From assembly GCF_002104515.1 (NCBI RefSeq), contig NZ_NBOE01000012.1, forward strand, positions 1-64,000: a stretch of 64,000 bases of DNA. The letters are read 5' to 3'. A model generated the notes under the pieces. That model did not search any database, was not told where the DNA came from, and saw nothing but the letters and a program-made list of their open reading frames with translations. Position numbers and translations under genes: made by a program. Source of the DNA: Colwellia polaris (GTDB lineage Bacteria; Pseudomonadota; Gammaproteobacteria; Enterobacterales; Alteromonadaceae). Positions within the stretch are counted from its first letter, which is position 1. Every line of letters starts with the position of its first letter. This document shows, in pieces, positions 4,906-64,000 of the stretch.

Positions 4906-5814
4906 TTAGCTGCTAATAGAAAAATTTTCTGAAAGTCCTGTTTTTAAGTTCGACAGATAAGTTTCATTTATATTGTCGTTAATCAAATGTGCGAGTTCAG
5001 TACCAATTGGCGTGAATTTGTAAAATGTTAAAATGCAATCGGCTTTCTTCGCAACAAAGCTTACCGTTTTACCATTAAAGTTGAACTGAATTTTTTCACC
5101 ATTAGCTAAAGGGTGGCTTTCTGTTTCTTGTTCAAACATTAAATGGTTGTCGGCTAAGGTTAAAATATCTGCGTAACTGAGTCCAACCTGATTCAGATCT
5201 ACTTGTTGTTGTCGCTGTTTATTAAAAAAGTTAAACAGCTTAGGAATTTGATATGCGCCACTAATAACACGGATATTTTTTTTACGCGTATCCGACATAG
5301 CTAAACTGCAAGCTTTTGCCAGTAATTTAGCTTCTGTTATGCTCATCGTTCGAAATGTTTGTAATGTTTTGAGGGAAAAAGAGCCAGGTTGGGATACTTC
5401 ACCTGCTAAAATTTTCGCCCATAATTCTTGCATACTTTTATTGCTAATGCCTTCGGCTAATGTAATAAAAGAACTAAACCAATCTTGGTCGGCTCTATCT
5501 GTAATATTTTCATCAGAACAATATTGAATAGCGCGCAAAACTATAGCTTCCATGTTTTGTTGTTTACGTAATTCATCAATTTTTTTACGTTTTAAAGCTC
5601 TATCTTCTATCGGAGCTTGTTTAATTTCAGGCAGAAATGCAGCATTAAGTGAGAATTTTTTAGCTAAAAGTAAAATTTGTTTTTGTGAAGAAGCATTTGC
5701 GGTTGAAGTAGAATTTTTATGCGCGGTAGCCTTACCATCGTGCTCTAAAATAACGGAGTTATTTTGCTCGCTAGCATGCTCAATTATTTTATTTTCATCT
5801 GCTGAATTAGACAC
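4906..5814 (-). CDS. TIGR03899/DUF2806-like conserved hypothetical protein
   Basis: This 302-aa soluble protein has no signal peptide or membrane segment. The first 50 residues are polar and low-complexity. The core contains LWAKILAGEVSQPGSFSLKTL at about 135-155, which I recognise from the gammaproteobacterial TIGR03899/DUF2806 group of unknown function. The start is a GTG preceded by AAGGGG about 8 nt upstream. It stands alone, convergent with cysJIH, and no partner gene suggests a role. Confidence 0.7.
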   Translation of the reverse strand: MSNSADENKIIEHASEQNNSVILEHDGKATAHKNSTSTANASSQKQILLLAKKFSLNAAFLPEIKQAPIEDRALKRKKIDELRKQQNMEAIVLRAIQYCSDENITDRADQDWFSSFITLAEGISNKSMQELWAKILAGEVSQPGSFSLKTLQTFRTMSITEAKLLAKACSLAMSDTRKKNIRVISGAYQIPKLFNFFNKQRQQQVDLNQVGLSYADILTLADNHLMFEQETESHPLANGEKIQFNFNGKTVSFVAKKADCILTFYKFTPIGTELAHLINDNINETYLSNLKTGLSENFSISS

Positions 5815-6174
5815 TAAATGGCCCCTTGAAAACTAAAAATTTGTTATCGAACCAACATAACATCGCCGACAAATTAATCATAGTGTAAAAATTAATGATT
5901 CCTACTAGATTTAAATTTTCATAATACTTTACAAACGCTAAAATATTATCTTTAATTTATAAGCATTTAAGTTTTATTGTATGTTAATTGATGTGTTTTT
6001 GAATGATTTAGTATCTATACTGCATGTAAATGATAATATTATTAAAACTAAAATGAATTATTGAATAATCTTAACCCTAAATTTATTATATACTTATTAT
6101 ACGGTGACAATTTATAATGAGACCGATGTTCAAAAATTCAGCTAGTTGTTGTTTACTAGTGCATTGAGGATGAT
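5815..6174. other. AT-rich gap between divergent genes
   Basis: This is very AT-rich DNA separating two divergently transcribed genes. It must hold both promoters, but no operator or hairpin stands out. A good ribosome site (GAGGA) lies just before the ATG at 6175. Confidence 0.5.
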
Positions 6175-8403
6175 ATGCAAGTTTCCGAAAATACCAACGA
6201 CGATTTTTTGTTTATCGATGATAGCGATGAAGATGAAATATTTGATCCCGCTATAACAGATACATGGAAAGTGTTAATTGTAGATGATGATCCTGAAATC
6301 CATTCAGTAACTCAGCTTGCCTTATCAGATCTTGTCGTTTTAGGTCGCCACTTAGAATATATACACGCTTACTCAGGCCAAGACGCTTGTAAACTAATTG
6401 AAGAACACAACGATATTGTCTTGGTTTTACTCGATGTTGTTATGGAAAGCGACGATGCAGGTCTTGTTGTTGTTAAGCATATACGTGAGCAATTAAAACG
6501 TGATGATATTCGTATTGTATTACGCACCGGACAACCAGGTTATGCACCTGAAGAAAGTGTTATAAAAGACTACGATATAAATGACTACAAAACTAAAACA
6601 GAATTAACCCGCCGCAAATTGGTAACTACAATTTATGCTGCTATTCGTTCATACCAGCAAATCGAGTCGGTTACTAAAAATAGACAAGGTTTGGAAAGAA
6701 TTATTGGTGCTGCTGGTACTTTACTTGGGCAACATACTGTTCATGGTTACGCTAGTGGTGTTTTAGCTGAATTTAACATGTTAGTTGATAGTAACAGCAG
6801 TGTTTTTTGCTCGCGAGGGCAAGGTATCATTAATGGTGCTGACGATTTAAGTTTGTACATTTTAGGGCAATCTGGCTTGTCTGAAGCAGCTATAAACACA
6901 AAATTATCTACTTTAGAAGATAAAGATGCTAATCGCCAAATTTCCCGTTGTTTTCAACAGAAAAAGCATTTTTTCGACTCTGAGTCTGCAACATTTTACT
7001 TCTCAAGTGGAGGCTTTAGAGCCGTTATTCACTTGGCGTTAAATAAAGCCTTAACAACAATAGAAGTTCAACTTATTGAAGTCTTTTTAACTAATATAGC
7101 TACAGGTTATGAAAATGTTCATCTTTTTCAAAAACTGCGTAACGCGGCTTATAAAGATTGGTTAACAGACTTACCTAATCGTTTAGACTTTGTAAATTTG
7201 CTTGATGATTTTTGTCAAAGTGATAACGATGAACTCGTCACTGCACTCATAGATATTAATCACTTTAGCGATATTAATGACGGTCTAGGGCAAGATATTG
7301 GTAACCAGCTATTAATGGCGGTATCAGCTCGCATTCGTACTTTGAGCGAAAAAAATCATTTGGCCAGAATTGGAGCCGATGTTTTTGGTATTATTGGCCC
7401 TAAAGAATGGGTGAACCCAGAAGCATTGACTGCGCTGTTTAGCCAACCTTTTTCAGTTGGTGAGCAAAACTTATTGATTAATGCTTGTTTTGGATTTTGT
7501 GCAAAAAATTCAGCGGGCTCTCGCGGTGTTAAAGTACTTAATCAAATAAATATTGCGCTTAATTTAGCCAAAAAATCATTACATGAACCTTATGTTTATT
7601 ATCACCAAGAGATGGAAGATAAAACACTGTGGCGCTTAGGGATGATCAGGCAATTACGTACTGATTTTGCGGATAATCGTTTAGAGCTTTATTATCAGCC
7701 ACAATTAAGTTTGGCTTCTGGAAAAGTTATTGGGGCAGAAGCACTTTTACGCTGGAAAACAGCAGAAGGTAAGTTTATTTCACCTGCTGTATTTATTCCA
7801 TTAGCCGAATATTCAGGTTTAATTATTGAAATTGGTAATTGGGTTGTTGAGCAAGCGTGCCAACAACTTAAAAAACTAGCAGCCAGCAAGTTTAATGATG
7901 TCAGCATTTCGGTTAATGTTTCTATCCCGCAATTTAAGCGTGATAATTTTGTTGATACAGTAATAGAAATAGCAAAACTTAATCAAGTAGATACCAGTAA
8001 ACTAGAGTTAGAAATTACTGAAAATGTATTGATGGATGAACCTCAAGTTATAATTGATGCTTTAATTAAATTAAAGGCACAAGGTATTAGTATTGCGCTT
8101 GATGACTTTGGTACAGGTTTTTCTTCTTTGAGCTACTTACAAAAGCTCCCTCTAGATCGTTTAAAGGTCGATAGAGCTTTCGTTAGTGATATTGTGATGC
8201 CAGGAGGCTCAATAATTGCCGATACTATTATTAATCTTGGTAAGCAAATGAGTTTAAACGTAGTCGCTGAAGGCATAGAAACGTTAGAGCAAGAAGTAGA
8301 ATTGAAAAGGCTAGGCTGTGATGAAGTTCAAGGCTTCCATTATGCGAAACCTATGCCAGCAGATGAGTTCTTCAGCTTTTTAGAGAAAGTAAATAGAGAG
8401 TAG
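6175..8403 (+). CDS. Response regulator with DUF3369, degenerate GGDEF and EAL domains
   Basis: This is a predicted c-di-GMP phosphodiesterase under phosphorelay control. An N-terminal receiver domain has the acidic triad start D37-D39 and likely phosphoacceptor D87 (LLDVV). It is followed by a DUF3369-type sensor region (from about residue 165) containing GLERIIGAAGTLLGQHT. The GGDEF domain is degenerate: the signature reads GADVF near residue 400, so cyclase activity is not expected. The EAL domain keeps EALLRW (about 521), DDFGTGFSSLSYL and VAEGIET, consistent with an active phosphodiesterase. No histidine kinase gene is adjacent. Confidence 0.92.
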   Translation: MQVSENTNDDFLFIDDSDEDEIFDPAITDTWKVLIVDDDPEIHSVTQLALSDLVVLGRHLEYIHAYSGQDACKLIEEHNDIVLVLLDVVMESDDAGLVVVKHIREQLKRDDIRIVLRTGQPGYAPEESVIKDYDINDYKTKTELTRRKLVTTIYAAIRSYQQIESVTKNRQGLERIIGAAGTLLGQHTVHGYASGVLAEFNMLVDSNSSVFCSRGQGIINGADDLSLYILGQSGLSEAAINTKLSTLEDKDANRQISRCFQQKKHFFDSESATFYFSSGGFRAVIHLALNKALTTIEVQLIEVFLTNIATGYENVHLFQKLRNAAYKDWLTDLPNRLDFVNLLDDFCQSDNDELVTALIDINHFSDINDGLGQDIGNQLLMAVSARIRTLSEKNHLARIGADVFGIIGPKEWVNPEALTALFSQPFSVGEQNLLINACFGFCAKNSAGSRGVKVLNQINIALNLAKKSLHEPYVYYHQEMEDKTLWRLGMIRQLRTDFADNRLELYYQPQLSLASGKVIGAEALLRWKTAEGKFISPAVFIPLAEYSGLIIEIGNWVVEQACQQLKKLAASKFNDVSISVNVSIPQFKRDNFVDTVIEIAKLNQVDTSKLELEITENVLMDEPQVIIDALIKLKAQGISIALDDFGTGFSSLSYLQKLPLDRLKVDRAFVSDIVMPGGSIIADTIINLGKQMSLNVVAEGIETLEQEVELKRLGCDEVQGFHYAKPMPADEFFSFLEKVNRE

Positions 8404-56647: not shown

Positions 56648-57539
56648 CTAAGCCAGTTTCGAGTGCCAATCAACAAGTGCTTCACCTATCAACTCAGGAC
56701 TGTCTTCTTGAACATAGTGCAGACCTGGCACGGTTACTTCGGTGATATTTGGCCATGAGCGAACATAATCTTCCACCTCACCAGCGATCATTACGCCGGG
56801 CTCTGCGTTAACAAAAAGTTTTGGAATTTCTGTTTGTGTTAGCCATTGGCTGTATTCACCAATAATTTTCACCACATCTTCAGGCTCTCCAGCTATCGGG
56901 ATTTGGCGCGGCCACGTTAGGGTTGGACGTCGGTCTTCACCCGCATTCAAGTAAGGGCGTTTGTATTCAGACATCTCAGCATCAGTTAAATCCCTTAATA
57001 TCGAGTTTGGTAGTACTTGCTCTACGAATACATTGCCTTCAAGTATTAGTTTTTCACCGGCGGGTGAACGGAATGCCTGAAACAATTCTCTGGCGCCTTC
57101 AGCAAATCCATCCCAGCTGGGAATAGGTGCTACGATCGCTTCCATAAAGGCAATACCTTTAACAGCATCTGGGTGTTGATGCGCCCAATGAAAACCAAGG
57201 CCTGATCCCCAGTCGTGAATGACTAAGGTTACATTTTTGTTTACCCCCAAGTTCTTCTAATAAACGAAACAAATACTTGCGTTGTTCAGTAAACGTATAG
57301 CTATCTGCATTGCTGTTATCGAGTTTTTCAGAATCGCCCATGCCAATTAAATCAGGGGCGATGAGCCTTCCTTTATCTTTCATAAAGGGCATGATATTGC
57401 GCCATAGATAAGATGACGTTGGGTTACCATGTAGAAAGACGATCGGGTCACCTTGGCCTTCGTCAATATAAGCCATTTGCTTACCGTGAATACTCTTGTA
57501 CTTTTTTGTGTATTGGGATTGTTCTGTAGCTTGTGACAT
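56648..57539 (-). pseudogene. Haloalkane dehalogenase, interrupted by a frameshift
   Basis: Two reading frames together make one alpha/beta-hydrolase of haloalkane dehalogenase type, about 295 aa. The N-part (57159-57539) has the oxyanion motif [17 protein letters not shown] and [10 protein letters not shown]. The C-part (56648-57250) has the nucleophile Asp in [16 protein letters not shown], the cap domain, and the His in VPGLHYVQEDSPELIG. The frames meet at a run of five C (plus strand 57244-57248). With four, LLEELG would continue into VNKNVT as in homologues. Either a real inactivating insertion, a slippery site or a sequencing error is possible. It is followed upstream by an SDR gene in the same direction. 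Confidence 0.88.
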
Positions 57540-59300: not shown

Positions 59301-59642
59301 TTACATTAACTGAATGTCTACTGAGTATTGCTGTCCATTTTCTTGTTTAAATTGAAAATTTACCATGGTGCCTATAGGTTGAGATATATGTGCTTTTGCT
59401 GTGCTTGCCGGACAGCTTGGTATCTCGCAACCATTGATAGCAAGTAATTGGTCTCCCGCTTTCACGCCTTCAGATTCGGCTAATGTACCACTTCTTACCG
59501 ACTTCACGGTGGCTTGTTTCACCTCAGGGGAGAAAAAGCCTTGAACAACTACATCTAACTTAAAACCAAGATCACGTTTTTCGGCAGCGAAACTCGGATT
59601 AATAAATAACATTAAAAACAATACCGATAAATACTTATACAT
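59301..59642 (-). CDS. Small exported PDZ-domain protein
   Basis: This 113-aa protein has a signal peptide (LSVLFLMLFINPSFAA) and a single PDZ-like domain with SGTLAESEGVKAGDQLLAING at about 55-75. A Cys pair (EIPSC, and CEIP just before) may form a disulfide. I choose ATG 59642 because GGAGG lies 5 nt upstream; an ATG seven codons earlier is less likely. It has no protease domain. It is transcribed in the same direction as the acyltransferase upstream, with a 90-nt gap, so it may be outside that operon. Confidence 0.82.
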   Translation of the reverse strand: MYKYLSVLFLMLFINPSFAAEKRDLGFKLDVVVQGFFSPEVKQATVKSVRSGTLAESEGVKAGDQLLAINGCEIPSCPASTAKAHISQPIGTMVNFQFKQENGQQYSVDIQLM

Positions 59643-59735
59643 AAAACCTCCAACTATTATCAATTATATATTTGATAATGAATACTGTGTAATTAAAAAT
59701 GTGCAAGTGCAGTTCATAAACTAAAAATTATTTTG

Positions 59736-60707
59736 TTATTTGTTAAAATCAACATGACTATTCGCGACATTCAACGCACTTTTAATTGAAGCGGTCTCTA
59801 ATTGTAAGCTGTTTGCTAGAGCAAGTATTTTATGTTTGCTCATAGAGAAACTAGGTTGCTCAGGTAGCGGCAAGCCTAGTCGGTTATTTAATTGTCTTAG
59901 GTAAATCCAATGTTGTGGTGCATGGGCTAACTGCTGTTCGATTGATTTAAACAAATGACTTGTTAGGTCGTAGGTGTCTTGTTCAAAATCATCTGTGCTT
60001 TTAAACTGAAATGGTTTATGAAGAATGCATTTAACACCGCCATTGTTATCAGGTACACAATACGCTTGCATGATCAGAGCATTAGTTTTAAGTGCTAAAA
60101 ATGCTGTACCTGCCATTGCTGTAGTAAAGTGACCGAAAAAAGGAATTGAAATAGACTGCCCAGACAAGTCAAATACATCAGGCATCATTGTTAATATCTG
60201 TTTGTTTTTAAGACACTTTAAAGCCCTGACTAAGCCCCGATTGTCATTGAATATTGGATTGAACTTGTCACCTAAACTACTTAAAACCTCTTTATAAACC
60301 GCTGTGGTTGGATTCTTTTCTGGAGGATCATAAAAGGCATTGACAGTTTTATTTTCACCCATATCAAGCACAGCCTTTAAGCAGCCAATTGCAAAAGGTC
60401 CATAATGTGGTGTAACAAAAATAACGGGCCCATCAAAGGTATGCGCCTGATGCCAATATTTAGGTTTGTCTACCCAAACTTTAGCGCTAATGAAGTGCTT
60501 TAAATTTTCACGAGTACTAGATAAACAAAAGTTATTTAGTTCATCTACTCGGGCCATTGATTGAAAGTGTTGATATATTTTTAAGTGATTAAACTTAGGA
60601 TTAATGCGTTGCAAAGATTGCTGTAATTGTTGTCGAGTTTCTTGATCAGTAACAAGCCTTGTAAAAGCATTCAGCTGTTGTGAGAGACGCTGTGTAATCG
60701 GTAACAT
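59736..60707 (-). CDS. LpxL/HtrB-like (LPLAT superfamily) acyltransferase
   Basis: This 323-aa soluble protein resembles the lipid A acyltransferase family: VIFVTPHYGPFAIGCLKAV aligns with the HxxxxD/E catalytic block. MMPDVFDLSGQSISIPFFGH and TAMAGTAFLALKTNALIMQA match the later conserved blocks. The catalytic acid after the His is missing (HYGPFA). There is no N-terminal TM helix, unlike LpxL. It starts 2 nt after the preceding gene. In this setting an acyl transfer to a peptide or a changed function is possible, by inference. Confidence 0.75.
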   Translation of the reverse strand: MLPITQRLSQQLNAFTRLVTDQETRQQLQQSLQRINPKFNHLKIYQHFQSMARVDELNNFCLSSTRENLKHFISAKVWVDKPKYWHQAHTFDGPVIFVTPHYGPFAIGCLKAVLDMGENKTVNAFYDPPEKNPTTAVYKEVLSSLGDKFNPIFNDNRGLVRALKCLKNKQILTMMPDVFDLSGQSISIPFFGHFTTAMAGTAFLALKTNALIMQAYCVPDNNGGVKCILHKPFQFKSTDDFEQDTYDLTSHLFKSIEQQLAHAPQHWIYLRQLNNRLGLPLPEQPSFSMSKHKILALANSLQLETASIKSALNVANSHVDFNK

Positions 60708-60709
60708 AA

Positions 60710-61558
60710 TTATGATCTGTTCCTTTGTAGTACGACTGTTTTCTGGTGCTTAATTGCTGCAAATGTAGGTTGTAAATCAGTAGATTCTAACCTAGGCCTT
60801 AAATGCCTGAGTAGCGCTTCTAATTGATTAACTTGAGAAATAAACACTTTTTCTAATCGCTCTACTTTATGATTTTTTAGCCTACTCCAGCTATATATGC
60901 TGCCATTTGGCGATTGATAACTGAGTGACAAGTCTTTGTACATATCACTTGGGTGTTTTACTAAGACTAAATTTTGTTCCACATTAAGGAAGTATGATGG
61001 AAGATTTTTTTTAGCACTAAGTAACCAAGAATATGTCGAGAACATGCAGGCATGTCCATGAATATACGTTCTATACTCACTGGTTAAGCTTTTCGGATGA
61101 AACTCAGGAACACTGATAAATATTTGTGTTTCAGAAGGTAGTACAGGCAAGGGGTTTAATGCTTTTTGATGGTTTATTAAAGTAATACGCGATAACGAGA
61201 GCAGCCTTTTTAAATAAGGTAATACTTCAACCTGATCCATAATCAAGTAAAAATGAAGTGAAGGGTTACAGTACATTTTTGCGATTAGCTCAATTAAGGC
61301 ACTACCATACGCAGCGTTGATAACACTGGCTTGTTCAAAAGGTATAGGTTTTTTATAATTCGACTGAGAAGTTTTTTTGCTGGTATACATTGAAATATTA
61401 TTATCAACTTTCTCCATTGCCGCTAAATGATGAGGGCTATTTTTTTCGTTAACTGTTGTGGCATTTGAGGCACAAAAAACTCCTAGCTGTTTATTTTGTT
61501 CCGTCAATAATAAAAAATCTTCATTCATATTTAAAAATTTAGATAAGAAAAATTTCAT
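60710..61558 (-). CDS. Unknown protein of the peptide/M50/acyltransferase operon
   Basis: I do not recognise this 282-aa protein. It has no signal peptide or TM helix. Visible segments are AYGSALIELIAKMYCNPSLH (about 95-114), ETQIFISVPEFHPKSL (about 157-172) and a basic C-terminus. The middle part has an alternating strand-helix look similar to an LPLAT fold, but that is weak. It overlaps the M50 gene by 4 nt and is 2 nt from the acyltransferase gene, so it certainly works with them. Confidence 0.6.
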   Translation of the reverse strand: MKFFLSKFLNMNEDFLLLTEQNKQLGVFCASNATTVNEKNSPHHLAAMEKVDNNISMYTSKKTSQSNYKKPIPFEQASVINAAYGSALIELIAKMYCNPSLHFYLIMDQVEVLPYLKRLLSLSRITLINHQKALNPLPVLPSETQIFISVPEFHPKSLTSEYRTYIHGHACMFSTYSWLLSAKKNLPSYFLNVEQNLVLVKHPSDMYKDLSLSYQSPNGSIYSWSRLKNHKVERLEKVFISQVNQLEALLRHLRPRLESTDLQPTFAAIKHQKTVVLQRNRS

Positions 61559-62787
61559 TTATTGCTCGCCTTTACATTGTTATTGACCAATAAGTTTTTA
61601 ATACGCTTTAAATAAAAAGAAAGTAGTAATGTGAATAGCGCTGCCCACATTAAGGCTTTTAGCAATGAAAGTAAGGTACCTTGCTCTAGCATTAGGTCAA
61701 TATTGCTAAGTAAACTACTATTGGGCAGAGAAAAGATCACAGCAGCAATTTCTTGCCCCGTTTGCCAAAGCTTACTACCTAGAAAGGTTGCAATATAGGT
61801 AAAAAATAACATTGCCATTAAGCTATAAGGTACTAACAAGTATAGCGTTTTGTCATTTTTAAAGTTCAGTGGCGTACCTTTGAAAACTTTATGTTTTATG
61901 CGATTTAGCGCTGTGCGCATTTTGTCATGAAGGTTAGTAATACCACTGAGGTCACTGAGCAACCAATAACCATCAAATTTAAAAAAGGGATTGAGGGTAT
62001 GTAGCATTGTTAGGGTGATTGTCCAAGATAAGACATAAGCAAACTGGCTTTCATAGAAAAAGGCGTAGCAATCAACAACAATCAGCAGTATTAATTGAAA
62101 ATATATCCCACCTAAATCAACAACAGCACGCTGTTTTTGTGATAATCGCCATGCTTTAGAAACATCAGCATAAAATACAGGGAACACTATGTATATACCA
62201 AAACCTATGCTGCCGTGCGGACAATTGAAGCGTTTACAAGCAGTTATATGGCCAAGTTCGTGAATAAAGTAACTCATTAGCATTGCCAGTAGAAACATGG
62301 GGATGGTAGACATCGATATGCCGAGTGTTGCTGCATGGCTAATATTAGCGAAAAGCGAAAAGTGAACACAGATAAAAACAAGGGCGAGGGCTGCACTTAG
62401 CCACTTATTAAATAATGGGGTCAATAAAACAGATAAGTACTTTAATATATACTCAGGTAACAGAGTCATACTAAATATAAAAGGGTTTCGTTGCGGAGGA
62501 AGCTCCATATCTGCAAACAGCTCTTCGGGAATATGTTGGCGAGCCAGCGCGATAATGTCTTCTTCAGTAGCCTTGTAGCGAGTTTTTATAAAATAACTTT
62601 CAACCAATGATTGACTCGAATTTTGATAAGTAAGTAAACTCTCAATTAATGATTTTACAGGTGCTGATACCACAAAGTTAAGATGTTCACATTGGATTAG
62701 AAATTTATTGTTTTTCTCTTCTGGCGATGAAGCTGTCGTCAAAATAAATTCGCTAATTTCAATGTTTTGATGAAGTTGAATAGGCAT
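61555..62787 (-). CDS. M50 family membrane metalloprotease with RRE/PqqD-like N-terminus
   Basis: This 410-aa protein has a soluble N-terminal region (about 1-100) resembling a PqqD/RiPP-recognition fold. Several membrane helices and an intramembrane zinc protease site HELGH follow (H176, E177, H180), with the second M50 motif LNPFFKFDGYWLLSD near 265-280. Such peptide zinc metalloproteases occur in RiPP clusters, where they process or export a precursor. A small precursor-like gene lies just upstream. It overlaps the next gene by 4 nt. Confidence 0.82.
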   Translation of the reverse strand: MPIQLHQNIEISEFILTTASSPEEKNNKFLIQCEHLNFVVSAPVKSLIESLLTYQNSSQSLVESYFIKTRYKATEEDIIALARQHIPEELFADMELPPQRNPFIFSMTLLPEYILKYLSVLLTPLFNKWLSAALALVFICVHFSLFANISHAATLGISMSTIPMFLLAMLMSYFIHELGHITACKRFNCPHGSIGFGIYIVFPVFYADVSKAWRLSQKQRAVVDLGGIYFQLILLIVVDCYAFFYESQFAYVLSWTITLTMLHTLNPFFKFDGYWLLSDLSGITNLHDKMRTALNRIKHKVFKGTPLNFKNDKTLYLLVPYSLMAMLFFTYIATFLGSKLWQTGQEIAAVIFSLPNSSLLSNIDLMLEQGTLLSLLKALMWAALFTLLLSFYLKRIKNLLVNNNVKASNK

Positions 62788-62815
62788 ATTAAGTTAATCA
62801 GTAAGTGACAAAATT

Positions 62816-62835
62816 GAGAGGGGGCGACCCCTCTC
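62816..62835 (-). promoter_or_regulatory. Hairpin between the small peptide gene and the M50 gene
   Basis: GAGAGGGG / CCCCTCTC, a perfect 8-bp GC-rich stem with a 4-nt loop, 9 nt after the peptide stop. The following sequence has no long T-run, so it is at most a partial terminator or an RNA-stabilising structure. This is common after RiPP precursor genes. Confidence 0.6.
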
Positions 62836-62843
62836 GCTTTAAA

Positions 62844-62978
62844 TTACCAAGTAACTTTACATTCGCAGCTTCCATCTGTTTCAGCGCCGCCATCATCAAC
62901 GACTGCTTCCATTTCAAAACGTGCTTCTAAAGCTTCTACAGTATATTCAGTGTTTAGCTCATTTTTATCATTATTCAT
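62844..62978 (-). CDS. Small peptide, probable RiPP precursor
   Basis: This gene encodes a 44-aa peptide with a textbook ribosome site (AAGGA, 7 nt before ATG). It has an acidic, helix-prone leader (TVEALEARFEMEAVV, residues 13-27) and a Gly-Gly at 30-31. A short C-terminal part, DGSCECKVTW, with two Cys in CxC spacing ends in Trp. It is the first gene before an M50 protease with an RRE-like domain, an unknown protein and an acyltransferase. Function as a modified peptide is inference from this layout. Confidence 0.68.
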   Translation of the reverse strand: MNNDKNELNTEYTVEALEARFEMEAVVDDGGAETDGSCECKVTW

Positions 62979-63600: not shown

Positions 63601-64000
63601 TTATATTAATGTTGTCGATTTGGGGGGATTTTTATTGTTTTTAACTAAGTACTCAGAAGGGGTACACCCGTAGTGCTCTTTAAAGCACTTACAAAAATAT
63701 GATGCCGATGAAAAGCCGCTCTCAAATCCAACTCTTTTAATTTGGAGGTTAGCATTCAGTCCTGTAACTGAGTGTTTTAGGCGTGATTTTTTTATTTCTT
63801 TACTTGGCGATGATTGATATGTTGCTTTAAATTTTCGTTGTAAACTACGTGGGCTTGAATTCAGCATAAGTGCAAGTTTTTCGGTGTTAAATTGAGGGTC
63901 ACAGTAATGCTCTGAAATCAAGACCATTGCAGCTTTAGTCAGTATTAAATCCTGTTCGCGCTCTTGGGTTAATTTATTATTCGATCTTTTAAAAAAGGTC
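63601..64000 (-). CDS. AraC family transcriptional regulator, C-terminal part (runs off the window)
   Basis: The frame is open to the window edge, so the start lies outside. The C-terminal ~105 residues form the AraC double HTH: LALMLNSSPRSLQRKFKATY, then a second helix pair ending VGFESGFSSASYFCKCFKEHYG and CTPSEYL. The part before it (FFKRSNNKLTQEREQDLILT) looks like the linker of a larger sensor-type protein. It is upstream of the peptide operon and in the same direction, so it may regulate it. Confidence 0.85.
   Translation of the reverse strand, partial: TFFKRSNNKLTQEREQDLILTKAAMVLISEHYCDPQFNTEKLALMLNSSPRSLQRKFKATYQSSPSKEIKKSRLKHSVTGLNANLQIKRVGFESGFSSASYFCKCFKEHYGCTPSEYLVKNNKNPPKSTTLI

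Follow-up and report, generated by a model that had tools for sequence, protein, structure and literature searches.

The window analyzed here is a 64,000-nucleotide stretch of Colwellia polaris DNA (positions 1 to 64,000 of contig NZ_NBOE01000012.1, assembly GCF_002104515.1). Near its end lies a cassette of four genes that all run in one direction on the minus strand, between 59736 and 62978. The first-pass annotation had described four tightly packed, co-directional genes, and it was right in the coordinates and in both junctions: the M50 and 282-aa genes overlap by 4 nt, and 2 nt separate the 282-aa gene from the LPLAT gene. The spacer between the precursor and M50 genes is 56 nt long and contains a stable hairpin. 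A PDZ gene lies downstream of the cassette and an AraC gene upstream. The features of the locus are these.

62844..62978, minus strand: precursor peptide of 44 aa, with the leader motif YTVEALEARFEMEA and the C-terminal sequence DGSCECKVTW (evidence: relatives, purifying selection)
62816..62835, minus strand: RNA hairpin in the spacer that separates precursor gene and M50 gene, from folding a probable attenuator or processing element
61555..62787, minus strand: M50 site-2 protease of 410 aa, with an N-terminal PqqD/RRE domain (about 1-90) and an S2P domain (about 105-409)
60710..61558, minus strand: divergent LPLAT-fold protein of 282 aa that lacks the catalytic His and is probably a non-catalytic partner
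59736..60707, minus strand: LPLAT (PF03279) of 323 aa, with H101 and D177 and no HX4D/E acid; presumed peptide acyltransferase
59301..59663, minus strand: small secreted PDZ protein (PF00595), accessory
63601..64000, minus strand, continuing past the end of the window: AraC-type regulator
G000:C4:64116-64984, just outside the window: HTH_26 and DUF2975 genes, next after the AraC gene and upstream of the cassette

The genes scanned in the 19 kb around the cassette were five from the cassette region, three for regulators and ten of their neighbors. No exporter was recognized directly beside the cassette; the nearest transporter-like genes, an MFS protein and a MacB/FtsX-like permease, are several kilobases from it. 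None of the four cassette genes had a match in PHROGs.

The 44-aa open reading frame is preceded, about 5 nt upstream of its ATG, by AAGGAAAG, a good ribosome site, though not the perfect one that had been claimed at first. Relatives of the cassette were sought by scanning genome contigs of 84,980 species with the M50 alignment. The best 80 of 81 relatives were kept, and 15 of these 80 M50 loci had an LPLAT match above 80 bits. These 15 cassette relatives belong to Colwellia (4), Thalassotalea, Shewanella, Pseudoalteromonas, Massilia (3), Duganella, Pseudoduganella, Janthinobacterium (2) and a Burkholderiales MAG (1), so that sets of precursor, M50 and LPLAT range over Colwelliaceae, Shewanella, Pseudoalteromonas and Oxalobacteraceae/Burkholderiales. 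A precursor lies upstream of the M50 gene in every one of them (14 found by pattern, that of L101 by eye), and the first-pass reading had been made to depend on just such conservation. For the three same-length pairs (window, L028, L029), dN was 0.05-0.07 and dS was 0.58-1.02. Since dN is well under dS and a precursor precedes the M50 gene in all 15 relatives, the peptide frame is not a chance one. We conclude from these substitution rates that it is a gene under purifying selection.

The window and its relatives supplied 17 precursors from 16 cassettes, with two in the Shewanella cassette (L036). Comparing these small peptides, in line with a check proposed along with the original annotation, revealed a conserved leader with the motif E-x-LEARFEME, E-x-LExRFEM or a close form, divergent in L073, L078 and L101. 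Behind the leader follows a short acidic stretch that varies from one precursor to the next, save for a Cys that all 17 have at a distance of 5 to 11 residues from their C-terminal end. These are gene-encoded precursors with a conserved leader and a C-terminal core, as expected of a RiPP. Gly-Gly, considered as a processing site, follows the leader motif in only five of the 17, namely four close Colwellia/Thalassotalea precursors and that of L101. We therefore rejected both Gly-Gly processing and membership in the double-glycine leader class.

The M50 protein has the intact HELGH reported earlier, and H176, E177, H180 and D272 were invariant among 55 aligned sequences. It combines HExxH, the conserved Asp of the third motif and the S2P fold of an M50 site-2 protease. 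The first-pass annotation had also proposed that residues 1-100 resemble PqqD/RRE domains. Profile comparison by hhalign agreed: this segment matched PqqD with a probability of 88.7 % (E 2.5e-6), compared with 0.1, 1.0 and 0.3 for three control segments, and its predicted structure has three strands and then three helices, plus an extra short helix after strand 1. Four of the 55 M50s, not including the window protein, matched PF05402 itself at E <= 0.1, the best of them at 1.6e-4. On these comparisons the M50 carries a PqqD/RRE domain at the N-terminus of a site-2 protease, and the cluster therefore has a protein with this RiPP hallmark. At E <= 0.001, all 55 M50s also matched two protease models, that of daptides and that of YydH/LiaK; we take YydH to be the same protein as EpeP. 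The window M50 scored 108.9 on NF041824 (the MpaP model; cut-off 300) and 57.9 on NF058609 (the YydH/LiaK model; cut-off 225).

Perhaps the locus makes no product at all, and a stress-related site-2 protease shares an operon by chance with a lipid acyltransferase, the small frame encoding a regulated substrate? Site-2 proteases do cleave membrane regulators, and the downstream PDZ protein would suit an envelope-stress system. However, this explanation does not fit the N-terminal RRE on the M50, whose closest named models are RiPP proteases, or the variable core behind a fixed leader, or the tandem precursor copies at L036 and other loci. We find it scarcely credible. Among the 15 other cassettes, the three closest (L028-L030) have a PDZ homologue after the LPLAT; none was found at the Colwellia loci L073 and L078.

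The LPLAT had been called LpxL-like, and its family was named correctly: it matched PF03279 with 54 bits, against a curated cut-off of 22.3. Its active site is not that of a normal LpxL, since H101 is present while position +5, the acid of HX4D/E, is A. Reading the alignment, we found D or E at this position in none of 23 RiPP-associated LPLATs, other phyla included; A, T, P, S, Q and others replace it. The genome's own LpxL retains HYLSAE. All 23 do have the His together with the block 3 Asp, and T99-P100-H101 and P176-D177 were invariant among 12 cassette LPLATs. D177 aligns with the PatA Glu numbered E200 (by counting from PatA His126), and H126 and E200 are given as the catalytic pair of PatA in the accessible part of PMC4792965. 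The window LPLAT thus resembles PatA and LpxM (5f2t, 5kn7) in sequence family or fold, catalytic His and block 3 acid, and differs from them in having no HX4D/E acid and in having a RiPP protease as its genomic partner. That the missing acid matters in a related enzyme follows from the title of LpxM structure 5knk, 'catalytic residue substitution (E127A)', E127 being the Glu of HX4E. Judged by the residues that it keeps, the enzyme may well be active despite this loss. Since the block 3 acid is retained, we provisionally set aside the alternative of an inactive enzyme.

The 282-aa protein had gone unrecognized in the original annotation. Sequence-only profile comparison did not link it to the LPLAT, and Foldseek alone gave no match at E <= 0.001. 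Structure comparison, however, gave it the LPLAT acyltransferase fold, without the catalytic His, and so it cannot be filed as an unknown protein without relatives. Its modeled fold suggests that it is probably a non-catalytic partner of the LPLAT.

In a survey of 196 genomes of the family, 15 had an M50 match at E <= 1e-10. The 282-aa profile was positive in five of the surveyed genomes (the window's own, G101, G143, G189 and the divergent G150), and the LPLAT profile matched these same five genomes with E values below 1e-100, beside the M50. Six more genomes reached the LPLAT profile only with E values between 3e-11 and 1e-8. In the ten remaining genomes with an M50 match, the two profiles found no 282-aa protein and no strong LPLAT; one of these genomes, G027, has an LPLAT gene that is more distant. 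In the wider contig scan, the 282-aa protein occurs in 14 of the 15 cassette relatives, in L031 by six-frame search, and was not found by such a search in Janthinobacterium sp. K2E3 (L101). In this last strain the M50 and the LPLAT are fused into one protein of 649 aa, and in the Duganella cassette (L032) a single open frame covers both the M50 and the 282-aa protein. Because of these two fusions, we conclude that M50, LPLAT and 282-aa protein belong to one pathway. The pairing with an LPLAT, pointed out as unusual at first pass, recurs in 15 other genomes, in one of them as a single protein. Plasmid searches gave partial, distant matches for the M50 (75 records) and 12 records for the M50-LPLAT fusion, none covering 80 % of the query in either case.

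The fusion also bears on whether the LPLAT pair works on the peptide. The cassette could make a RiPP while the pair modifies a membrane lipid of the producer as a means of self-protection, or works with a different acyl-like donor, for instance an aminoacyl group. The LPLAT does fall in the lipid-A acyltransferase family, and immunity genes are frequent in such operons. Moreover, the core offers no conserved nitrogen acceptor: Lys or Arg follows the leader motif in 14 of the 17 precursors and is missing from three, so no single side-chain nitrogen is conserved. Set against this are the M50-LPLAT fusion and the finding that, across the 196 genomes, strong LPLAT homologues occur only beside the M50, both of which tie the LPLAT to the peptide-processing step. 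We regard a lipid substrate or a different donor as rather unlikely.

Gene content in distant relatives points the same way as the fusions. L022 has an M50, an LPLAT, a peptide arginase, a ketosynthase and a PPTase, and L087 has precursors, an M50, an arginase, an LPLAT, FabA and ketosynthases. A peptide arginase makes the ornithine of selidamides, and arginase, ketosynthase and PPTase are as expected of a pathway that is fed by ACP and yields acyl-ornithine. Fusions, co-occurrence and this gene content all agree in favoring acylation of the peptide, and from the sequence evidence we lean towards the view that the LPLAT acylates it.

A different use of the conserved Cys was also considered. 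The peptide might be a signal in which this residue forms a small ring or bears a short acyl group, sensed by the AraC and HTH_26/DUF2975 regulators. The last Cys is at -5 in 11 of the 17 precursors and at -6 in three, an arrangement that, we presume, recalls thiolactone autoinducers. DUF2975 homologues were present at eight, and HTH_26 homologues at seven, of the 15 cassette loci, and neither was found at any of the 65 other M50 loci. However, we recognized no AgrB-like enzyme and no follower sequence, and in the three remaining precursors the last Cys is at -8 to -11. Hence we think a signaling peptide of this kind improbable. As to orientation, DUF2975 runs opposite to the M50 in five of the six DUF2975-bearing Oxalobacteraceae/Burkholderiales loci and in the same direction in L029, L030 and L032.

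The spacer hairpin is not peculiar to the window. We folded the intergenic regions of six of the 16 cassettes, and all six contained a hairpin (z -2.0 to -4.4); in L029 and L030 the stem sequence was altered yet still paired. Because the stems change and stay paired, and every folded region has one, the hairpin likely serves as an attenuator, with the abundant precursor on one side and its enzymes on the other.

We return to the reading of the locus as a RiPP-type cassette, which is very probably correct. It is supported, together with the LPLAT pairing, because the peptide is conserved by the M50 and M50 residues 1-100 match PqqD, and the two fusion proteins strengthen it; the original RiPP reading has thus held up. 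Sequence or predicted fold shows the conserved precursor, the RRE, the S2P active site, both LPLAT folds, the conserved His/Asp pair, the co-occurrence and the two fusions, and from these we infer leader binding, acylation, acceptor site, chain, donor, order of steps and bioactivity. In the proposed pathway, the PqqD/RRE domain of the M50 would bind the LEARFEME motif of the precursor leader at the membrane. The LPLAT, aided by its His-less LPLAT-fold partner, would then attach a fatty acyl group to the C-terminal core, with acyl-ACP or acyl-CoA as the donor. The likely acceptor would be the conserved Cys, mostly five or six residues from the end, a neighboring Lys or the new N-terminus. The intramembrane M50 protease would finally cut off the leader and release a short acylated peptide. 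Since no arginase, acyl-carrier or lipid-synthesis gene was recognized among the scanned neighbors adjoining the window cassette, it would draw on the cell's own acyl-ACP or acyl-CoA. Several findings count against the proposal: the absence of the HX4D/E acid from 23 of 23 LPLATs; the absence of recognized acyl-carrier or lipid-synthesis genes next to the window cassette and of an exporter directly beside it; the three precursors that have no Lys or Arg behind the leader motif; the failure of sequence-only comparison and of Foldseek alone to place the 282-aa protein; and the L101 system, which works, if at all, without a 282-aa protein. Taken as a whole, it seems to us somewhat better than an even proposition.

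Parts of this scheme have counterparts in known systems. In daptides, the RRE-dependent intramembrane peptidase MpaP cuts the leader away, according to the accessible text of PMC10036551, and the M50 shares this architecture of RRE and intramembrane peptidase (NF041824). The present precursor, however, ends in W and not Thr, and no oxidative decarboxylase, aminotransferase or methyltransferase of the daptide kind was recognized among the scanned genes. The epipeptide system YydFGHIJ/EPE, with YydH/LiaK (NF058609), likewise has a short precursor and a membrane-anchored peptidase in the part of PMC12871923 available, but the window cassette has no radical SAM epimerase or exporter gene, and no radical SAM gene was seen among the genes scanned in the 19 kb around it. 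Selidamides, which are acyl-ornithine RiPPs, and other GNAT-lipidated RiPPs receive a fatty acyl group from a dedicated maturase, a GNAT, as far as the available portions of PMC13060382 and PMC12703449 describe them. The distant relatives of the window locus share with them the peptide arginase as well. Here, however, the acyltransferase is an LPLAT (PF03279); none of the scanned genes matched GNAT (PF00583), and no lanthipeptide synthetase was recognized in the cassette or the scanned neighbors. We therefore rejected filing the cassette as a daptide, epipeptide or selidamide, whose defining enzymes were not found among the scanned genes. No description of it appeared by title or abstract start among the matches listed in the open-licence literature, and it is apparently undescribed so far. 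Daptides already offer a precedent for the protease architecture; what is new is the LPLAT pair as the proposed maturase. If this is true, then beside GNAT, as the accessible text of the selidamide papers presents it, LPLAT would be a second, unrelated fold for ribosomal lipopeptides and would widen the chemistry to mine and engineer. The cassette is small, at four genes, and conserved from marine Colwelliaceae to Oxalobacteraceae.

Opinion is evenly poised on the widest claim, namely that lipidated RiPPs include a new class whose Cys-bearing core is acylated by an LPLAT/LpxL-fold enzyme with a His/block-3-Asp pair, itself paired with a His-less LPLAT-fold partner, on a general platform of RRE-site-2 protease and LExRxE leader that several phyla reuse with different modifying enzymes. 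Searching for such leaders beside RRE-site-2 proteases is also a simple way to reach many unassigned clusters. Among the best 80 of 81 relatives, short [LVIM][ED]xRxE frames lay within 5 kb of the M50 on the same strand at 54 of 80 loci, against two of 80 on the opposite strand. At other M50 loci, radical SAM (L065) or arginase (L087) genes replace or accompany the LPLAT. Hence the LExRxE leader is tied to the RRE-protease and not to one modifying enzyme.

In one Duganella genome (locus L032, 6866-9070), a single 735-codon open frame spans both the M50 protease and the LPLAT-fold partner. From its sequence, this reads as a second fusion, besides that in the Janthinobacterium locus L101, where M50 and LPLAT form one protein. 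Within the family of the window's own genome, the RRE-site-2 protease of L022 (G027:C5:258001-278000) adjoins a peptide arginase, an LPLAT, a ketosynthase, and a phosphopantetheinyl transferase; this locus looks like an additional lipid-RiPP hybrid cluster.

In Shewanella and Pseudoalteromonas, the gene after the LPLAT encodes an alpha/beta hydrolase of lipoprotein-like character instead of the small secreted PDZ protein:

L036 4382-5422, lipoprotein-like alpha/beta hydrolase (Shewanella)
L039 9758-10837, lipoprotein-like alpha/beta hydrolase (Pseudoalteromonas)

Near the window cassette, another alpha/beta hydrolase gene (56648-57539, minus strand), which resembles haloalkane dehalogenase, appears split into two overlapping ORFs, each matching PF00561, as if a frameshift had broken it. 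In Alteromonadales and Burkholderiales, the cassette is accompanied by HTH_26 and DUF2975 gene pairs in differing orientations:

L029, L030, L033, L034, L037, and L038, HTH_26 + DUF2975 pairs
G000:C4:64116-64984, HTH_26 + DUF2975 pair in the window's own genome

In Bacteroidota loci (L043, L045, L047, L049, L054, L057, L061, L084, L085, and others), the M50 genes have Cys-rich precursors nearby, whose leaders carry LExRLETDP. Those of L049, L054, L057, and L084, the four compared with NCBIfam models, gave no match at E <= 0.1. In Chryseobacterium (L087, L095, and L098, at about 5600-7750), several near-identical 45-46-aa precursors stand in tandem before the M50 gene; in L087, arginase, hydrolase, and LPLAT genes then follow, and FabA and ketosynthases adjoin.
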